Source of the DNA: Sneathiella sp. P13V-1
GTDB lineage: Bacteria > Pseudomonadota > Alphaproteobacteria > Sneathiellales > Sneathiellaceae
Assembly: GCF_015143595.1 (NCBI RefSeq)
Contig: NZ_WYEU01000003.1
Coordinates: 248,001-312,000, forward strand
Direction: 5' to 3'
Length of the DNA: 64,000 bases
The notes below the pieces were generated by a model that had not been told where the DNA came from, did no database searches, and was given only the letters and a program-made list of their open reading frames with translations. Shown one piece after another: positions 2,009-23,909 of the stretch. Every line of letters starts with the position of its first letter. The stretch's first letter is position 1. The translations under genes and the position numbers were made by a program.

Positions 2009-3895
2009 TCAAAAACCGGTACTCCGGCCCGATGCAACACCAAAACCATCAAGATCCGCCTCATTGCCCTCCGCCTCAGCCAGGGCTTTCTGTGCTATTT
2101 TTAAGCGTTCGAGGTTTTCAGGTGTCAAATCTTCTCCTAATAACGTTTCTGCAATCTTGACTTCATCTTGCAACATTTTCCGTTTAAGACGGGCGACAAG
2201 ATGCTTCCATCCGCTACGAGCATCGTCGAATGCCGCCTCTTTATCAGCGAACCAATCCAGATCTCCCTGCGCTGATTTTTCCAACCTATCTATTTGCTGT
2301 GCAAATCCCCGCTTAGATAAGTGGTGCTTCAACCCTTCTTCGTCAAGATCTGATTCGGAAGAAGCAATTTCTATGATTGCACTATGCAGCCTGTCAAGCA
2401 TTGCAGAGGAAAGCTGAAGCGCGGCAAACTCATCAAAGTCAGATTCGAGGATTTTCGGGTGATTGAGCACTGTCAAAAGCAGTAATTCGCCGCCACGCCC
2501 CATCCCTGCATTCGGAACATTAGTCACTTGTAGACGTGTATTCTGTCCAGATTTGCGTTGATTCGCGAATCGTCCGAATCGTTTATCGCCAGCCCTTCCC
2601 TTATCAAAAGACTTTTTGCCACCACCTGAACTCCGCCCAAGCTCCCATAAACGGTTGCGAAAATGCTTTTGGTAATACCCTCGGACCGTCTGATCCTGAA
2701 TCTGCTGCGTGACCTCTTCCAGCGCCGCTTCAAAGGCTGCTTTTTGCTCTGGCGTCTCCATCGACCGGCCGGCCAGCGTATTCTCCCAAAGCAGAGTAGA
2801 TAATGGCTTCGCAGCTGCCAGAAGTTCCTGCATTGCCGCAGCCCCCCTCTGTTTAATCAGATCATCGGGATCAAGCCCTTCTGGCAACATGGCAAACTTT
2901 AAAGAATAGCCAGGCTTCAAAAGCGGGAGTACGCGCTCTGCGGCACGAACGGCAGCCCGAACACCCGCACTATCACCATCCAAACATAATGTTGGCTCAG
3001 GCGCCATTTTCCACAAGATACGTATCTGATCTTCCGTCACCGCTGTCCCGAGCGGTGCAACAGCATGTTCAAAACCTGCTTCGGCCAGAGCGATCACATC
3101 CATATACCCCTCGGCCACCAGAACTTCCCCCACATTGAATGCCTGGCTTCGCGCCTTCGCCATATTGTAAAGCACATGCCCTTTATGAAAGAGCGGCGTA
3201 TCAGGAGAGTTCAGATATTTCGCAGGCGCATCGCCCAGGGCCCTTCCGCCGAAAGCGATCACGCGCCCCCGCGCATCAGTTATAGGAAACATCAAACGAT
3301 CACGAAAACGGTCATAACTATCACGGCCATTATCCGGCTTAATGACAAGCCCCGCCTCAATCAGCAAATTCTCCGGAATTTTCCGCGCCAGCATGGCTTC
3401 TTTCATGGCTGTACGGCTATCTGGCGCGAATCCAATACGGAAAAGCTGTTGCGCAAGAGGGCTTACTTGACGTCTTTCCAAATATTCCCGAGCGATCAGT
3501 CCAGACTGTGTCGACATCTGGGCGGTGAACCATTGGGCAGCAACTTCCATTACATCGTGCAAGGTTGCCGACTTTTCACGCCTTACCCGCTCCTGCGGCC
3601 GTTCAACAGGCATCTGCATACCTGCCATATCTGCAAGACGCTCAATGGTTTCACGAAAGTTCAGACCCTCCGTTTGTTTAACAAACTCCACCTGATCACC
3701 GTGGGCACCACAGCCAAAACAGTGATAGAAGCCTTTTTCTTCATTTACCGTGAAAGAAGGGGTTTTTTCGTTATGAAACGGACATAGGCCTGAATACTCC
3801 CGTCCCTTTTTGACAAGTTTGGTCCGACGGCCAATGAGCTCGCTTAAGCTGACCCGGTTTCTAATCTCATCCAGAAATTGTGGCGGGAAAGCCAT
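2009..3895 (-). CDS. dnaG: DNA primase DnaG
   Basis: Synthesises RNA primers for Okazaki fragments, working with DnaB helicase. The 628-residue product has the N-terminal zinc ribbon (C38-P-F-H41 and C59-F-G-C62). The TOPRIM catalytic core follows, with EGYMDVIALAEAGF near residue 265 and the acidic LDGDSAGVRAA motif. The C-terminal helicase-binding domain is less conserved. I chose ATG at 3895 (MAFPPQFLDE) because AAGGGG lies 5 bases upstream; two further start codons at 3898 and 3901 sit too close to that site. It is followed by rpoD and preceded by yqeY, all leftward and probably cotranscribed. Confidence 0.97.
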   Translation of the reverse strand: MAFPPQFLDEIRNRVSLSELIGRRTKLVKKGREYSGLCPFHNEKTPSFTVNEEKGFYHCFGCGAHGDQVEFVKQTEGLNFRETIERLADMAGMQMPVERPQERVRREKSATLHDVMEVAAQWFTAQMSTQSGLIAREYLERRQVSPLAQQLFRIGFAPDSRTAMKEAMLARKIPENLLIEAGLVIKPDNGRDSYDRFRDRLMFPITDARGRVIAFGGRALGDAPAKYLNSPDTPLFHKGHVLYNMAKARSQAFNVGEVLVAEGYMDVIALAEAGFEHAVAPLGTAVTEDQIRILWKMAPEPTLCLDGDSAGVRAAVRAAERVLPLLKPGYSLKFAMLPEGLDPDDLIKQRGAAAMQELLAAAKPLSTLLWENTLAGRSMETPEQKAAFEAALEEVTQQIQDQTVRGYYQKHFRNRLWELGRSSGGGKKSFDKGRAGDKRFGRFANQRKSGQNTRLQVTNVPNAGMGRGGELLLLTVLNHPKILESDFDEFAALQLSSAMLDRLHSAIIEIASSESDLDEEGLKHHLSKRGFAQQIDRLEKSAQGDLDWFADKEAAFDDARSGWKHLVARLKRKMLQDEVKIAETLLGEDLTPENLERLKIAQKALAEAEGNEADLDGFGVASGRSTGF

Positions 3896-13868: not shown

Positions 13869-13982
13869 AGACGAAATTCATACCGCCCAAGTAATCATTC
13901 CAATAAAGAAAATGTATATTTTGTGGATTTTTTTATATACGTTAATTGTAATTTAATAAAATCCCCCTAAATTCACATGTAT

Positions 13983-14072
13983 CAACCCGCGTCGGGTTGT
14001 CGATTGGAACCTATCCAATCTATTTGACGCCTCCCTGTTGACTTGAGCCGCCTTTTGGCGGCTCTTTTTTTG
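13983..14072 (+). ncRNA. Candidate small RNA with CUCCCUGUU box (AbcR-like unit 0)
   Basis: No open frame covers this stretch, but it folds cleanly. CAACCCG (13983-13989) pairs with CGGGTTG (13993-13999), and GATTGG (14002-14007) pairs with CCAATC (14015-14020). A single-stranded CCTCCCTGTT (14030-14039) follows, then the terminator GAGCCGCC (14045-14052) with GGCGGCTC (14057-14064) and seven U. The CUCCCUGUU box plus ACTTG plus terminator recurs in the three units at 22.3-22.9 kb, so it is probably a paralogous copy. The 5' end is not defined; AT-rich sequence at 13915-13970 could hold its promoter. Confidence 0.6.
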
Positions 14073-20214: not shown

Positions 20215-21183
20215 ATGGCTGAAACATTTACAACAAGCACCCTTATCATCGGTTCCGGTCCGGCTGGATGTACCGCGGCAATTTACGCGGCTCGTGCCTC
20301 CTTAAAACCGATCATGGTGCATGGAATTCAGCCAGGTGGTCAGCTTACCATCACCACAGAAGTCGAAAACTACCCGGGCTTCGCAGATCCTATTCAGGGT
20401 CCCTGGTTGATGGAGCAAATGGAAGCTCAGGCCAGAAATGTTGGCACAGAAATCCACAATGATGTGATTACCGATTTAGACACTTCAAAGCGCCCGTTCG
20501 TCGTAACCGCTGATTCCGGCAACACATACGTGGCTGATACGGTGATTATTTCAACAGGTGCCTCCGCAAAATGGTTGGGATTACCGTCCGAGCAGGAATT
20601 CATGGGCTTTGGTGTTTCTGCCTGCGCCACATGCGATGGATTCTTCTACCGCGGAAAAGAGGTCATGGTTGTGGGCGGTGGCAATACGGCCGTTGAGGAA
20701 GCGCTGTATCTCACAAACCACGCCGACAAGGTGACCATCATTCATCGCCGTGACAGCTTCCGTGCGGAAAAAATTCTGGTGAACCGTCTGATGAAGAATC
20801 CTAAAATCGAAGTGATTTGGGATACGGTTCTGGATGAGATTGTTGGTGAACATCCTGCAGGTGTGACCGCCGGGCGTGTCCGCAACGTCAAAACAGATGA
20901 AGTTCGTGACATTCCGGTTCACGGTGTTTTCATTGCAATCGGTCATTCCCCGAATACTGACCTGTTCAAGGGGAAAATCGATATGGACGACGAAAGCTAT
21001 ATCGTAACCGCACCTGATTCCACAGCCACCAATGTGGAAGGCGTGTTCGCATGCGGTGATGTTCAAGATAAAACTTACCGGCAGGCGGTAACCGCTGCAG
21101 GTACTGGCTGTATGGCGGCACTGGAGGCTGAACGCTTCATTGCGGAACAGGAAGATGCGGCATCTTCCGTCGCTGCGGAATAG
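20215..21183 (+). CDS. trxB: Thioredoxin-disulfide reductase
   Basis: FAD- and NADPH-dependent reductase that keeps thioredoxin reduced. At 322 residues it is normal. It shows the FAD-binding GSGPAGCTAAIYAARA (residues 13-28) and the redox-active C137-A-T-C140. NADPH binding is at VVGGGNTAVEEALYL, and the C-terminal FACGDVQDKTYRQAVTAAGTGC is present. AGGAG lies 7 bases before the ATG. It is directly upstream of an LsrB-like LysR gene, an order conserved in Rhizobiales and linked there to oxidative-stress control. Confidence 0.97.
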   Translation: MAETFTTSTLIIGSGPAGCTAAIYAARASLKPIMVHGIQPGGQLTITTEVENYPGFADPIQGPWLMEQMEAQARNVGTEIHNDVITDLDTSKRPFVVTADSGNTYVADTVIISTGASAKWLGLPSEQEFMGFGVSACATCDGFFYRGKEVMVVGGGNTAVEEALYLTNHADKVTIIHRRDSFRAEKILVNRLMKNPKIEVIWDTVLDEIVGEHPAGVTAGRVRNVKTDEVRDIPVHGVFIAIGHSPNTDLFKGKIDMDDESYIVTAPDSTATNVEGVFACGDVQDKTYRQAVTAAGTGCMAALEAERFIAEQEDAASSVAAE

Positions 21184-21311
21184 CCCAAACAGAATAAATC
21201 CATTCCCGGTCTGGAAAATACTCTCACAAATGACTAACCTATCAAGTTATAGGGAGTGATAATAAATCGATCGAGGTTCCAAACCTCGATAACTTGAGGG
21301 AACCAGATCGG

Positions 21312-22202
21312 ATGGATTGGGATAAGTTACGTATATTCCATGCGGTGGCTGAGGCTGGAAGCTTCACACACGCAGGCGAGACGCTGCACTTAAGTCAATC
21401 TGCGGTTAGCAGACAAATCAGTGCGTTAGAAGACAGTCTCAACCTTTCTCTATTTCACCGACACGCCCGCGGATTGCTCCTCACAGAGCAGGGCGAACTC
21501 CTCTACCGCACGGCCCATGAGATTTTCGCCAAGCTCGCCATGACGGAAGCAATACTTGCGGATAGTAAGGAAAAACCATCAGGTGAGATCAAGGTTACTT
21601 CCACTGTTGGTCTTGGATCAAATTGGCTCACCCCCCGTATTCGTGAGTTCATTGAACTTTACCCTGATATTCGGGTGAACCTGATTTTGGCTGACCGGGA
21701 ATTGGATCTTGGAATGCGGGAAGCAGACGTTGCTATTCGTCTACGCTCCCCCGTTCAACCAGATCTGATCCAACGAAAATTGGCAACAGTTCGGCATCAT
21801 CTCTACGCTTCCACCGAATATATCGAGAAATATGGCACCCCCAGATCATTGGAAGATTTGGCAAAAAGGAACATTCTCATTTATGGAGATGAAGCGCCTT
21901 CAAATATCTCCAATATTAATTGGATCATTGAAAAACTTCATCAAATGGACCCTTCGATCACCCCTGTATTCAAGGTGAATAATGTGTATGGTCTTTTGCT
22001 GGCCATCCAAAGCGGTCTGGGGATTGGCAGTCTACCCGATTACATTACAGAAGGTCAGAAAAACATCGTGCGTGTCATGCCAGAGCTCGAGGGACCTGAA
22101 TTTGATACCTATTACGTTTACCCGGAGGAATTACGGAAATCCAAGCGTGTCACAATTTTCAGGGATTTCCTTATTCGAAAAGTAGCGGAGTCTAGTTTTT
22201 AG
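21312..22202 (+). CDS. lsrB: LysR-family regulator, LsrB-like by sequence position
   Basis: A 296-residue LysR regulator. The N-terminal winged HTH is MDWDKLRIFHAVAEAGSFTHAGETLHLSQSAVSRQISALEDSL, followed by an effector domain starting GEIKVTSTVGLGSNWL. ATG 21312 (MDWDK) matches family starts; an upstream TTG at 21294 is less likely. The trxB-lsrB order, followed by small RNAs, mirrors the Sinorhizobium/Agrobacterium trxB-lsrB-abcR locus. There LsrB responds to redox state and controls stress genes. Orthology is inferred from synteny, so the symbol is tentative. Confidence 0.85.
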   Translation: MDWDKLRIFHAVAEAGSFTHAGETLHLSQSAVSRQISALEDSLNLSLFHRHARGLLLTEQGELLYRTAHEIFAKLAMTEAILADSKEKPSGEIKVTSTVGLGSNWLTPRIREFIELYPDIRVNLILADRELDLGMREADVAIRLRSPVQPDLIQRKLATVRHHLYASTEYIEKYGTPRSLEDLAKRNILIYGDEAPSNISNINWIIEKLHQMDPSITPVFKVNNVYGLLLAIQSGLGIGSLPDYITEGQKNIVRVMPELEGPEFDTYYVYPEELRKSKRVTIFRDFLIRKVAESSF

Positions 22203-22329
22203 GCACTTGATATTTTTAGCTTTTCTCAAGCTATGCATCTGACGCATGTCGGCCTTGAAATTTTTAAACTACTCCTTAATGTCATTTTTATCTAAATAAG
22301 AATTGTGCAGAGCAATAAAGCACTTTTTT

Positions 22330-22460
22330 CCAACGATCTCCCTTTAAGTTGGTGAAATAAGCTATTTTGTTTCTCCCAGACAAAATAGCATTCATGTATG
22401 AACATGAACTCCCTGTTAGTAGGCCAGCCTTCCCCCCTCTAGGCTGGCCTTTACTATTTT
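22330..22460 (+). ncRNA. AbcR/alpha-r15-like small RNA, tandem unit 1
   Basis: CCAAC (22330-22334) pairs with GTTGG (22348-22352), with CTCCC in the loop. GCTATTTTG (22361-22369) pairs with CAAAATAGC (22381-22389) around TTTCTCCCAGA. A short TTCATG/CATGAA stem follows. CTCCCTGTT (22409-22417) precedes a 9-bp terminator stem (22421-22429 with 22442-22450) whose loop is TTCCCCCCTCTA. The U-tract is interrupted (TTACTATTTT), so termination may be leaky. Multiple C/U-rich unpaired motifs fit antisense pairing to ribosome-binding sites. It is the first unit after lsrB. Confidence 0.65.
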
Positions 22461-22551
22461 CAGCCTATGCAATTCGATCACATCTGCTTTGTTTGCATAG
22501 TTGCGCCTTTTGCCATGCGTTTATCGCATAGGTGCACTGCAAAAAATATTC

Positions 22552-22580
22552 TGGAAAAATAAAAGGCATTTGCCTATATT
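22552..22580 (+). promoter_or_regulatory. Possible promoter of tandem small RNA unit 2
   Basis: TGGAAA (22552-22557) and TATATT (22575-22580), spaced by 17 bases, would start a transcript near 22587. That is just before the first hairpin of unit 2. Four and five of six positions match sigma-70 boxes. Confidence 0.4.
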
Positions 22581-22586
22581 CCAATC

Positions 22587-22742
22587 ATCAACGCTGCACT
22601 GCAGCATTGATCGAATATCGACCCCCCTTATCGATATTCCCGTTACTTGTTTTCCTCCCAGATGCAAGTAACCATATCATCTCCTAGATGATATACCTCC
22701 CTGTTAGACTTGCCAGCCTCTTTACAGAGGCTGGTCTTTTTT
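22587..22742 (+). ncRNA. AbcR/alpha-r15-like small RNA, tandem unit 2
   Basis: Four perfect stems lie in a row. GCTGC/GCAGC is at 22593-22605. GAATATCGA (22613-22621) pairs with TCGATATTC (22631-22639), loop CCCCCCTTA. GTTACTTG (22642-22649) pairs with CAAGTAAC (22665-22672), with CCTCCC in the loop. ATATCATCT (22674-22682) pairs with AGATGATAT (22686-22694) around CCT. The shared box CCTCCCTGTT (22696-22705) and terminator CCAGCCTC (22713-22720) with GAGGCTGG (22727-22734) plus U7 end it. The CCTCCCAG loop is the kind of motif described for AbcR RNAs. Confidence 0.7.
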
Positions 22743-22817
22743 TGCCATGATGGCAACGCATAGCAGCTATTCGCCATTAACAATTCAACTCAGGGAAACG
22801 CACCCCATATCCAAAAT

Positions 22818-22936
22818 GTTCGGAACAACCTCCCTTAAGTTCTGGACTGCGGTCAGTTCCCTGTAGACCGCGCAGCCGATCTACTCGGCTAACCTCCCTG
22901 TTGAACTTGCCGGCCATTATTGGCCGGCTTTTTTTT
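22818..22936 (+). ncRNA. AbcR/alpha-r15-like small RNA, tandem unit 3
   Basis: CGGAAC (22821-22826) pairs with GTTCTG (22839-22844) around AACCTCCCTTAA, nearly the same loop as in unit 1. GCGGTC (22849-22854) pairs with GACCGC (22866-22871) around AGTTCCCTGTA. AGCCGA (22874-22879) pairs with TCGGCT (22885-22890). CCTCCCTGTT (22893-22902) leads to terminator GCCGGCC (22909-22915) with GGCCGGC (22922-22928) and U8. About 119 bases, the usual AbcR size. Its terminator abuts the convergent msrP stop codon. Confidence 0.7.
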
Positions 22937-23909
22937 ACATAAAGAGACGTTCTCTCTTACCAAGTTCTTTGTAGAGGTGCGCAACCTCTTCGGCGTAGCC
23001 ATTATACATCTGGGTCGGAATGCGCTCTTCCGTGCGAAGATCACGCTCTGTCGCTTGTGACCAGCGTGGATGGCGTACTTCCGGGTTCACATTTGCCCAG
23101 AAACCATATTCAGACGCGTTCAGTTTTTCCCAGAAACTGACCGGGCGTTCTTCAGTAAAACTGAAACGGACAATAGATTTGATATGTTTGAAACCATACT
23201 TCCAAGGAACGGCCAGCCTTAACGGCGCACCACTTTGCTTGGGGAGTGGCTTGCCATAAAGTCCGGTTACCATAAAGGCCAGATCATTGGTTGCCTCTTC
23301 AATTGTGAGGCCCTCAGTGTAAGGCCATGGATACCAGAACTGCTTTTGACCCGGCGCAACAGTTTTGTCTTCAAAGGTCTGCATAATCAGATATTTAGCT
23401 TTTGAGGTTGGCTTGGCAAACGCCACCAGATCTTTTAACGCAAAGCCACTCCAGGGAACGACCATGGACCAGGCTTCAACGCATCGATGACGGTAAATCC
23501 GCTCTTCCAGTTGCATCTTGGCCAACAGGTCATCGACGCCAATTTCCATTTCCTGCTCGACTTCGCCATCTATTTTGACCGTCCAAGGGCGGATTTTCAG
23601 CGCCTGCGCCGCTTCGGAAATGCTTTTGTGAGATCCAAATTCATAGAAATTGTTATAGGTGGTTGCAATTTTCTCAGGTGTTAGGGGGCGGCCTCCAACG
23701 TAAGATTCATTGCGTGGTACGGGATAAAGTGACGCAGAAGGATCCGCCTCAGCAGCTGCGAAGGCGCGACTTCCCATTGATGAAATCGTAGATGCCGCAA
23801 TCCCGCCAAGACCTAACGCTTTTAGTATCTGTCGGCGGTTCGCATACGTCGTTTCTGACAGAACTTCAGATTCTTTCAGTTCCCAGCTTTTTTTAATCTT
23901 GATGAGCAT
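22935..23909 (-). CDS. msrP: Protein-methionine-sulfoxide reductase catalytic subunit MsrP
   Basis: Periplasmic molybdenum enzyme that repairs oxidised methionines in envelope proteins. The 324-residue precursor has a twin-arginine signal (R25-R26 in NRRQILKAL, then a hydrophobic stretch to about residue 53), for Tat export of the folded molybdopterin protein. The molybdenum-ligating cysteine is C143 in YRHRCVEAWSM, and the sulfite-oxidase-fold signature GFALKDLVAF follows. The usual haem partner msrQ is not adjacent. The gene is near the molybdopterin genes at 37.4-39.9 kb on the genome, but not linked to them. Confidence 0.93.
   Translation of the reverse strand: MLIKIKKSWELKESEVLSETTYANRRQILKALGLGGIAASTISSMGSRAFAAAEADPSASLYPVPRNESYVGGRPLTPEKIATTYNNFYEFGSHKSISEAAQALKIRPWTVKIDGEVEQEMEIGVDDLLAKMQLEERIYRHRCVEAWSMVVPWSGFALKDLVAFAKPTSKAKYLIMQTFEDKTVAPGQKQFWYPWPYTEGLTIEEATNDLAFMVTGLYGKPLPKQSGAPLRLAVPWKYGFKHIKSIVRFSFTEERPVSFWEKLNASEYGFWANVNPEVRHPRWSQATERDLRTEERIPTQMYNGYAEEVAHLYKELGKRERLFM

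Follow-up and report, generated by a model that had tools for sequence, protein, structure and literature searches.

Three tandem structured RNA units after trxB-lsrB in Sneathiella sp. P13V-1: predicted LsrB-controlled small RNAs that resemble AbcR

The small RNAs AbcR1 and AbcR2 (alpha-r15; Rfam RF02345, model ar15), described as a family of the Rhizobiaceae and Brucellaceae (PMC3712013), are encoded directly after the trxB-lsrB gene pair (PMC7486931). The regulator VtlR/LsrB binds the consensus GCAT-N3-TG-N3-T (PMC7486931, PMC8844928). This motif lies at -61 to -49 of abcR1 and its removal causes a more than 22-fold drop (PMC8844928). In Sinorhizobium meliloti, LsrB is reported to sense reactive oxygen (PMC8844928). 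The LsrB box is a feature of abcR1 only; abcR2 of S. meliloti is driven by RpoH1. Further RNAs of a comparable build are SorY (RF02651) and SorX (RF02784) of Rhodobacter, in which a CCUCCCUGUUgGACUU-type module precedes the terminator, and mmgR/suhB (RF00519) and BjrC1505 (RF02356), which have a CUCCCU element and a terminator and, in the case of BjrC1505, also CCUCCCUGUU. Here we analyse the 732-nt gap (positions 22203-22934) between lsrB and a convergent oxidoreductase gene in a 64,000-nt stretch of the Sneathiella sp. P13V-1 genome, referred to as the window. An earlier note had suggested that this gap holds an expanded AbcR locus. The shared place after trxB-lsrB, on which that note relied, agrees with the literature (PMC7486931) and with our control genome G393 (Rhizobiaceae-like by its ar15 scores), where trxB-lsrB is followed by two RNAs that match ar15 at 127 and 119 bits.

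The gap is C-rich on the plus strand (191 C, 124 G), and no open reading frame (ORF) of at least 80 aa, the lower limit of the ORF listing, was found in it. Instead, it holds three units of one architecture: a run of hairpins, then (C)CUCCCUGUU, a short spacer and a terminator (Table 1). The 9-mer CTCCCTGTT, contained in all three modules, is expected 0.39 times by chance in 64 kb and occurs four times, a count reached in 0 of 100 shuffles; the fourth copy lies inside an RNA of the BjrC1505 family elsewhere in the window. A terminator scan returned the terminators of units 2 and 3, and that of unit 1, which has a poor U tail (TTACTATT) and was missed by the scan, was found with a custom script. 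Folding z-scores were -6.4 (22326-22455), -8.0 (22600-22745) and -5.9 (22790-22936), with 0 of 200 shuffles as good, against +0.7 for a control flank of 138 nt just after lsrB (22203-22340). Modules, terminators, folding and shuffles confirm that three structured units, each closed by the same module and terminator as previously noticed, follow lsrB beyond what chance would produce. The array had been taken to begin at 22326, some 20 nt downstream of the unit 1 start now predicted.

Anti-Shine-Dalgarno motifs recur in the loops of these units and are conserved. CTCCC is found seven times on the plus strand of the gap, compared with a mean of 1.0 in mononucleotide shuffles (seven reached in 0 of 2000), and not once on the minus strand of the first 1000 nt after lsrB. 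Within the first 720 nt of 21 same-genus loci (22 including the window, less L048, which offers 100 nt after lsrB), 139 copies lie on the plus strand vs a single one on the minus strand. Two loops of unit 1 contain CUCCC, CCUCCC or CCCCCC, as does its terminator loop; unit 2 has two such loops and a further one with CUCCU, and unit 3 has a single one alongside a UUCCCUG loop. C-rich loops are present in all units, although not in every upstream hairpin as the earlier description had it, and its tally of over ten anti-Shine-Dalgarno segments is reached only if CCCCCC, CUCCU and UUCCC are added to the seven CTCCC.

Comparison across the genus revealed the compensatory changes expected of conserved stems. 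In the 20 sequences of unit 2, both sides changed with pairing kept in 18 of 37 pairs and 99.5% of cells were paired; on four of five measures 0 of 500 shuffles was as high, the fifth, further pair types, not being above shuffles (485 of 500 reach it). Slid structures paired at most 46.7% of cells. The third hairpin has double changes in 8 of 9 pairs around a loop core, UUCCUCCCA, that is invariant in 20 of 20 sequences. Units 1 and 3 are more divergent; over all sequences, double changes appear in 15 of 21 predicted pairs of the former and in 8 of 13 of the latter, with far weaker folding energies in column-shuffled controls. The supernumerary hairpins, previously regarded as unusual, are present and conserved and are no quirk of this genome.

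Each unit is also preceded by an LsrB-type box near -61, the distance found in abcR1. The published consensus is matched exactly in unit 2, and units 1 and 3 carry the box without an exact GCAT-N3-TG-N3-T. Taken with the published motif position of -61, the exact box predicts a start of unit 2 at 22587. The box of unit 3 is perfect in L033, L035, L036, L038, L039, L040 and L041 (L and G numbers denote loci and genomes of the comparison). When offsets 42-61 from GCAT were scanned across the genus for the best CTATAT-like hexamer, the candidate -10 element of unit 2 fell at 47 or 48 in all 20 rows, each time with 0-2 mismatches, and that of unit 3 at 47 or 48 in 11 of the 12 rows having a box. 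The spacing equals that of the ar15-confirmed AbcR of G393, with CCATAT at GCAT+48 and the first base of the RNA at GCAT+61. Outside the family, 72 of the 78 loci with the module have a box with at most one mismatch (4.75 expected after shuffling) and 50 of 78 a perfect one (0.35 expected); CTATAT with at most one mismatch peaks there at offset 48 (19 loci) and 47 (10), followed by 25 (4). The rotated control word TATATC, with its peak at 49 (12 loci), is not independent because it is the same element read one base on. From box and spacing we predict that each unit carries its own LsrB-type promoter like that of abcR1.

Table 1. Predicted features of the gap after lsrB and its neighbouring genes (positions in the window)
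Feature	Positions	Strand	Basis and remarks
Unit 1, predicted small RNA	22305..22455	+	Start by AbcR spacing (GCAT+61); end at terminator tail
LsrB-type box of unit 1, ATGCATCTGACGCAT	22233..22247	+	ATGC-N7-GCAT pattern scan, conservation
-10 element of unit 1, CTAAAT	22292..22297	+	48 nt past GCAT
Unit 1 hairpin, CUCCC loop (AbcR M1-type CUCCCA)	22361..22389	+	Fold
Unit 1 module, CUCCCUGUU	22409..22417	+	CTCCCTGTT at 22409-22417; then terminator 22421-22450
Unit 2, predicted small RNA	22587..22743	+	Four hairpins, module, terminator
LsrB-type box of unit 2, ATGCGTTTATCGCAT	22515..22529	+	ATGC-N7-GCAT
Exact VtlR/LsrB consensus GCAT-N3-TG-N3-T of unit 2	22526..22538	+	Pattern scan against published consensus
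-10 element of unit 2, CTATAT	22574..22579	+	48 nt past GCAT
Unit 2 hairpin, anti-Shine-Dalgarno loop UUUUCCUCCCAG	22642..22672	+	Fold, comparison with G393
Unit 2 module, CCUCCCUGUU	22696..22705	+	CTCCCTGTT at 22697-22705; then terminator 22712-22735
Unit 3, predicted small RNA	22819..22936	+	Shorter; lacks a 5' GUUGC hairpin in the window's genome
LsrB-type box of unit 3, ATGATGGCAACGCAT	22747..22761	+	One mismatch to ATGC-N7-GCAT
-10 element of unit 3, CCATAT	22805..22810	+	47 nt past GCAT
Unit 3 module, CCUCCCUGUU	22893..22902	+	CTCCCTGTT at 22894-22902; then terminator 22909-22928
Thioredoxin reductase, presumably trxB, upstream of lsrB	20215..21183	+	ORF; Pfam Pyr_redox_2 6.5e-53; name from context
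lsrB/vtlR-type LysR regulator, presumed activator of the units	21294..22202	+	ORF; Pfam HTH_1, LysR_substrate; name from context
Convergent molybdopterin oxidoreductase, downstream boundary; we take it to be msrP/yedY-like	22935..23909	-	ORF; Pfam Oxidored_molyb 6.2e-30

The units are real, conserved and structured, and are very probably three LsrB-controlled small RNAs. Judging from sequence, there is a strong case that they are separately transcribed, trans-acting and switched by LsrB, and that they would work like AbcR. LsrB from the adjacent upstream gene would bind each ATGC-N7-GCAT/GCAT-N3-TG-N3-T box, some 60 nt ahead of the predicted start, and activate transcription; the box and its spacing are observed, and binding and activation are presumed from the example of abcR1. 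Folding and covariation show that the RNAs present anti-Shine-Dalgarno seeds in hairpin loops and a single-stranded CCUCCCUGUU before the terminator. With the help of Hfq, whose gene is present in the genome and which presumably binds them, the seeds could base-pair with ribosome-binding sites of the GGGAG type and so keep nutrient-uptake mRNAs from being translated. The main candidate targets are binding proteins of the branched-chain-amino-acid type (Peripla_BP_6) and the TRAP type (DctP), for which site enrichment is observed in this genome. Three paralogues would let one regulator drive RNAs with different seed flanks.

The enrichment was measured in 35 binding-protein genes of the window's genome, with start codons assigned by a fixed rule based on the Shine-Dalgarno (SD) sequence and with seven words tried in the search for sites. 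GGGAG occurs in the 25 nt upstream of the start codon in 10 of 15 Peripla_BP_6 and 8 of 12 DctP genes, compared with 16 of 170 controls (8/56 genes of the window and 8/114 elsewhere). When an SD core was required, the three families tested, SBP_bac_3 included, had GGGAG in 18 of 27 genes vs 16 of 82 controls (p 1.1e-5). Pairing energy with the best of seven seeds averaged -15.1 vs -10.8 for controls (p 4.5e-9), a larger contrast than that for pairing of the same genes with 16S rRNA (-9.8 vs -8.3, p 0.0011). Of 57 DctP matches in three relatives, the 30 with loci were used: GGGAG precedes 14 of these 30 genes, compared with 6/54 neighbouring genes (p 4e-4). The published targets livK of AbcR1 (PMC3712013) and takP, a transporter mRNA, of SorY (PMC6238624, PMC8307010) are of the same two kinds as the enriched families. 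The full 9-nt complement of the module, AACAGGGAG, was found before 0 of the 35 genes of the three transporter families; at 4 of the 29 CTCCCTGTT sites in the genome, however placed on the other strand, it precedes the start of an ORF of 60 aa or more by 7-9 nt. At L022 and L006 (near 1501, on the strand opposite CTCCCTGTT), it lies 8 and 9 nt before genes for a Bmp-type ABC binding protein and NapB, which are candidate strong targets.

A unit was counted as verified when the module and a terminator were found within 820 nt (genus) or 750 nt (outside the family). By this measure three units are present in 14 of the 21 genus loci. Outside the family, the module with terminator is found in 78 of 147 unique lsrB loci, as one copy in 77 and as two in L067; an lsrB-linked RNA that reaches no Rfam cut-off at the window's locus has module relatives in about half of these loci. 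The count excludes loci with less than 150 nt of downstream sequence and those that repeat another in the first 250 nt; the 69 loci without a verified module are counted as misses, a module could be missed in the 6 of 147 that have less than 400 nt, and closely related species may count twice because uniqueness was judged by the first 250 nt. In L052, from a second genus of the family, there are two units and a third box to which no verified module belongs. This perfect LsrB-type box, at 3035-3120, is accompanied by a GTTGCAGCGCAA remnant and has the appearance of a third unit that has decayed in this sister genus. The module of unit 3 is CTCCCTGTC rather than CTCCCTGTT in L043, L044, L045 and L050, which belong to one part of the window's genus.

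In the tree built from 57 units, 54 of the 55 genus units have a copy of equal number as nearest neighbour, and none has one from its own genome; the 3' 75 nt alone give 52 and 1. There is little sign of homogenisation, because nearest neighbours share the unit number and not the genome. Unit 2 of both clades groups together. The three paralogues were probably already separate before the genus diversified, which for units 1 and 3 rests on conserved order and number because the tree does not group them. Of the expanded locus proposed earlier, the three copies stand, and growth from two does not appear to be the history indicated, as 77 of the 78 non-family loci with a verified module have one. 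The genus offers a natural test of why one regulator retains two or three sibling RNAs.

Several findings weigh against three LsrB-switched RNAs of AbcR-like action. The U tail of unit 1 is weak, and its -10 element is not uniform, since only 8 of 19 rows have the best hexamer at offset 48; in the other 11 it lies at 42-46 and has 2-3 mismatches. No box with at most one mismatch precedes 4 of the 16 verified copies of unit 3, and the SorY-like locus L175, described below, has a box but AAAACT at +48, which is no -10 element. Verified units number two in 6 of the 21 genus loci and one in another, and the tree does not unite the two clades for unit 1 or for unit 3. Rfam ar15 does not match the units. 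As for targets, the SD-based start rule favours SD-like sites in both gene sets, GGGAG precedes 0 of 8 SBP_bac_3 genes, and the DctP contrast in the relatives is lost when an SD core is required (14/28 vs 6/17, p 0.26). Transporter genes may simply have strong SD sites, since the contrast fades after SD matching. The verdict holds despite the weaker promoter of unit 1 and the SD-matched evidence because unit 2, unit 3 and the class-wide evidence outweigh them.

That the units are true members of AbcR/alpha-r15, an expansion of AbcR1/AbcR2, appears doubtful. They share with AbcR the place after trxB-lsrB, the box and -10 element at equal spacing, the tandem arrangement and probably transporter targets. 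Loop UUUUCCUCCCAG of unit 2 is identical over 12 nt with the AbcR loop of G393, a genome related to the window's genus at class level only (12 reached in 2 of 300 mononucleotide shuffles). The AbcR motif M1, CUCCCA (PMC5461406), occurs in 20/20 copies of unit 2, 13/19 of unit 1 and 5/16 of unit 3; in unit 2 it lies in the third hairpin, whereas AbcR has CUCCCA/CUCCUCCC in the first. The second AbcR seed (M2/aSD2, GUUCCC/UUCCCCUC between hairpins) is nearly absent: GTTCCC is found in 0/19 copies of unit 1, 0/20 of unit 2 and 4/16 of unit 3 (L030, L031, L039, L042), the window's own copy lying within a hairpin loop, and UUCCCCUC, searched as TTCCCCTC, is found in 0 of 55 genus units. The 3' module differs as well, with CCUCCCUGUU in the units where AbcR has GUUCCCCUCUGGAGG (GUUCCCCUCUGG; the ar15 consensus reads GUUCCCCUCUGgAGG). 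The near-absent second seed and the different module are direct differences from AbcR; the units further have up to four hairpins before the module and are present in three copies.

The earlier note had proposed a search with the ar15 covariance model and had listed the lack of a match among the outcomes that would count against it. No ar15 match was found at 22000-23100 at E up to 5, and the best in the whole genome (17.5 bits, cut-off 40) lies away from the locus. This silence is weak evidence because the model is narrow. It gave 127, 119 and 112 bits in the positive control G393, whose third AbcR copy (L222) has no lsrB within its 3-kb locus. Ten lsrB loci from named Rhizobiales were not matched at E up to 0.5; downstream of lsrB, five of them have GTTCCCCTCTGGAAGG, another four have a closely similar sequence, and L135 has neither. 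Beside lsrB, scores of 29.9-37.5 bits were obtained in three genomes (L214, L217, L219) of the order to which the control belongs. The search of this order, around G188, gave G393 and seven sub-threshold genomes: these three, and L215, L216, L218 and L220, which lack lsrB in their 3-kb loci. Four sub-threshold matches were obtained in 39 chosen genomes, and no match in 289 genomes of the class, a result that does not show absence. One of the four, L210, is really mmgR (72 bits) and was rejected. The Rfam ar15 model thus detects AbcR little beyond the Rhizobiaceae and Brucellaceae.

Two blind models were built without sequences of the window's family: R1 from 36 of 69 non-redundant rows, by sequence only and with no base pairs since MAFFT misplaced the terminator stems, and R2 from 7 gapless rows with 15 pairs and a hand-written structure. 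In the 64 kb, R1 at E up to 1 found unit 2 (30.2 bits), unit 3 (27.9 bits) and the BjrC1505 RNA, with no others, and missed unit 1. R2 found unit 2 at 56 bits (E 4.9e-16), unit 3 at 40, the BjrC1505 RNA at 28.4 and unit 1 at 21.3 (E 6.8e-5), with three further weak matches (E 0.019 to 0.45). Applied to 12 loci with an ar15 match or of named Rhizobiales, R1 found 0; R2 found 9 at 12.3-23.7 bits and missed the strong AbcR loci L213 and L222 as well as L145. These weak matches were set aside as uninformative. The units are AbcR-like in place, promoter, loop and probable action; by the model they are not members of ar15, and their descent from AbcR is doubtful.

We consider it unlikely that the units are instead stress-type small RNAs of the SorX, SorY or mmgR kind that merely adjoin lsrB, a reading that overlaps with the one preferred here. 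The best Rfam matches at the locus are indeed to these families, all below cut-off: under relaxed limits SorX scored 38.9, 29.9 and 21.3 bits, mmgR 30.2 and SorY 29.6, along with further weak matches. The highest, to SorX, is that of unit 3 (cut-off 46.6), and SorY requires 111. CCUCCCUGUU is the 3' module of the SorX, SorY and BjrC1505 models. The matches span only the last hairpin, the module and the terminator, and the SorX and SorY models have one hairpin before the module; moreover, these RNAs are under stress sigma factors (PMC8307010), and LsrB boxes at fixed spacing tie the units of the window to LsrB. The mmgR/suhB and BjrC1505 families are below cut-off or absent at the locus and have other 5' parts. 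A gathering-level Rfam search of the window returned only BjrC1505, at 13935-14071 (64.5 bits, cut-off 50). This RNA lies about 8 kb upstream and has the module CCUCCCUGUU as well as a terminator.

In a distant alphaproteobacterium, L175 (990-1079), the RNA directly after lsrB is SorY-like (62.1 bits, E 3.7e-10, below the cut-off of 111). This observation suggests that SorY, whose target takP is a transporter mRNA, and AbcR occupy the same place after lsrB. The lsrB-linked RNA of the window offers a candidate evolutionary link between the two. It is quite possible that trxB-lsrB-small RNA is an ancient cassette of the Alphaproteobacteria, in which an ancestral LsrB-switched anti-Shine-Dalgarno RNA gave rise to AbcR in Rhizobiales, to SorY-like RNA and to an unnamed CCUCCCUGUU family, with three lasting paralogues in this genus. 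The titles and abstract beginnings listed in searches of the open-access literature yielded nothing on lsrB-linked RNAs outside Rhizobiales or joining AbcR with SorY, and CUCCCUGUU as text appeared in two unrelated papers.

A single long transcript, or an lsrB 3' untranslated region (UTR) with structured elements, processed or not, is improbable. lsrB lies close by on the same strand, and SorX itself derives from a 3' UTR (PMC6238624), but a terminator and a promoter-like box with a -10 element separate the units and the upstream flank is unfolded. Cuckoo/CIN1 RNAs (CcsR, NfeR1/alpha-r14), which likewise have several hairpins with conserved anti-Shine-Dalgarno loops and variable stems, are LsrB-activated in the case of NfeR1 (PMC10746234) and typically adjoin a small DUF1127 gene in the case of CIN1 (PMC10253847), are a most improbable explanation and were dropped, as their loop CCUCCUCCC (CCTCCTCCC) is absent from 22203-22934 and each unit has its own terminator.

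The neighbourhood is conserved along with the units. An lsrB homologue (E up to 1e-60) is a single match in the window's genome, as in 21 of the 23 further genomes of the genus, and an oxidoreductase homologue follows in the same convergent orientation in all 20 other genus loci that extend far enough (L048 being too short). Two metagenome-assembled genomes titled Rhizobium sp. Q54 (L105 and L110) have a CCUCCCUGUU-type RNA after lsrB that is not AbcR-type; their species label looks doubtful. At L012 (near 1501; G000:C2:1003377), another CTCCCTGTT is directly followed by a terminator and a T run and may mark an additional small RNA; a match to a DctP-type TRAP binding protein (G000:C2:1000569-1001411) lies about 2 kb upstream.

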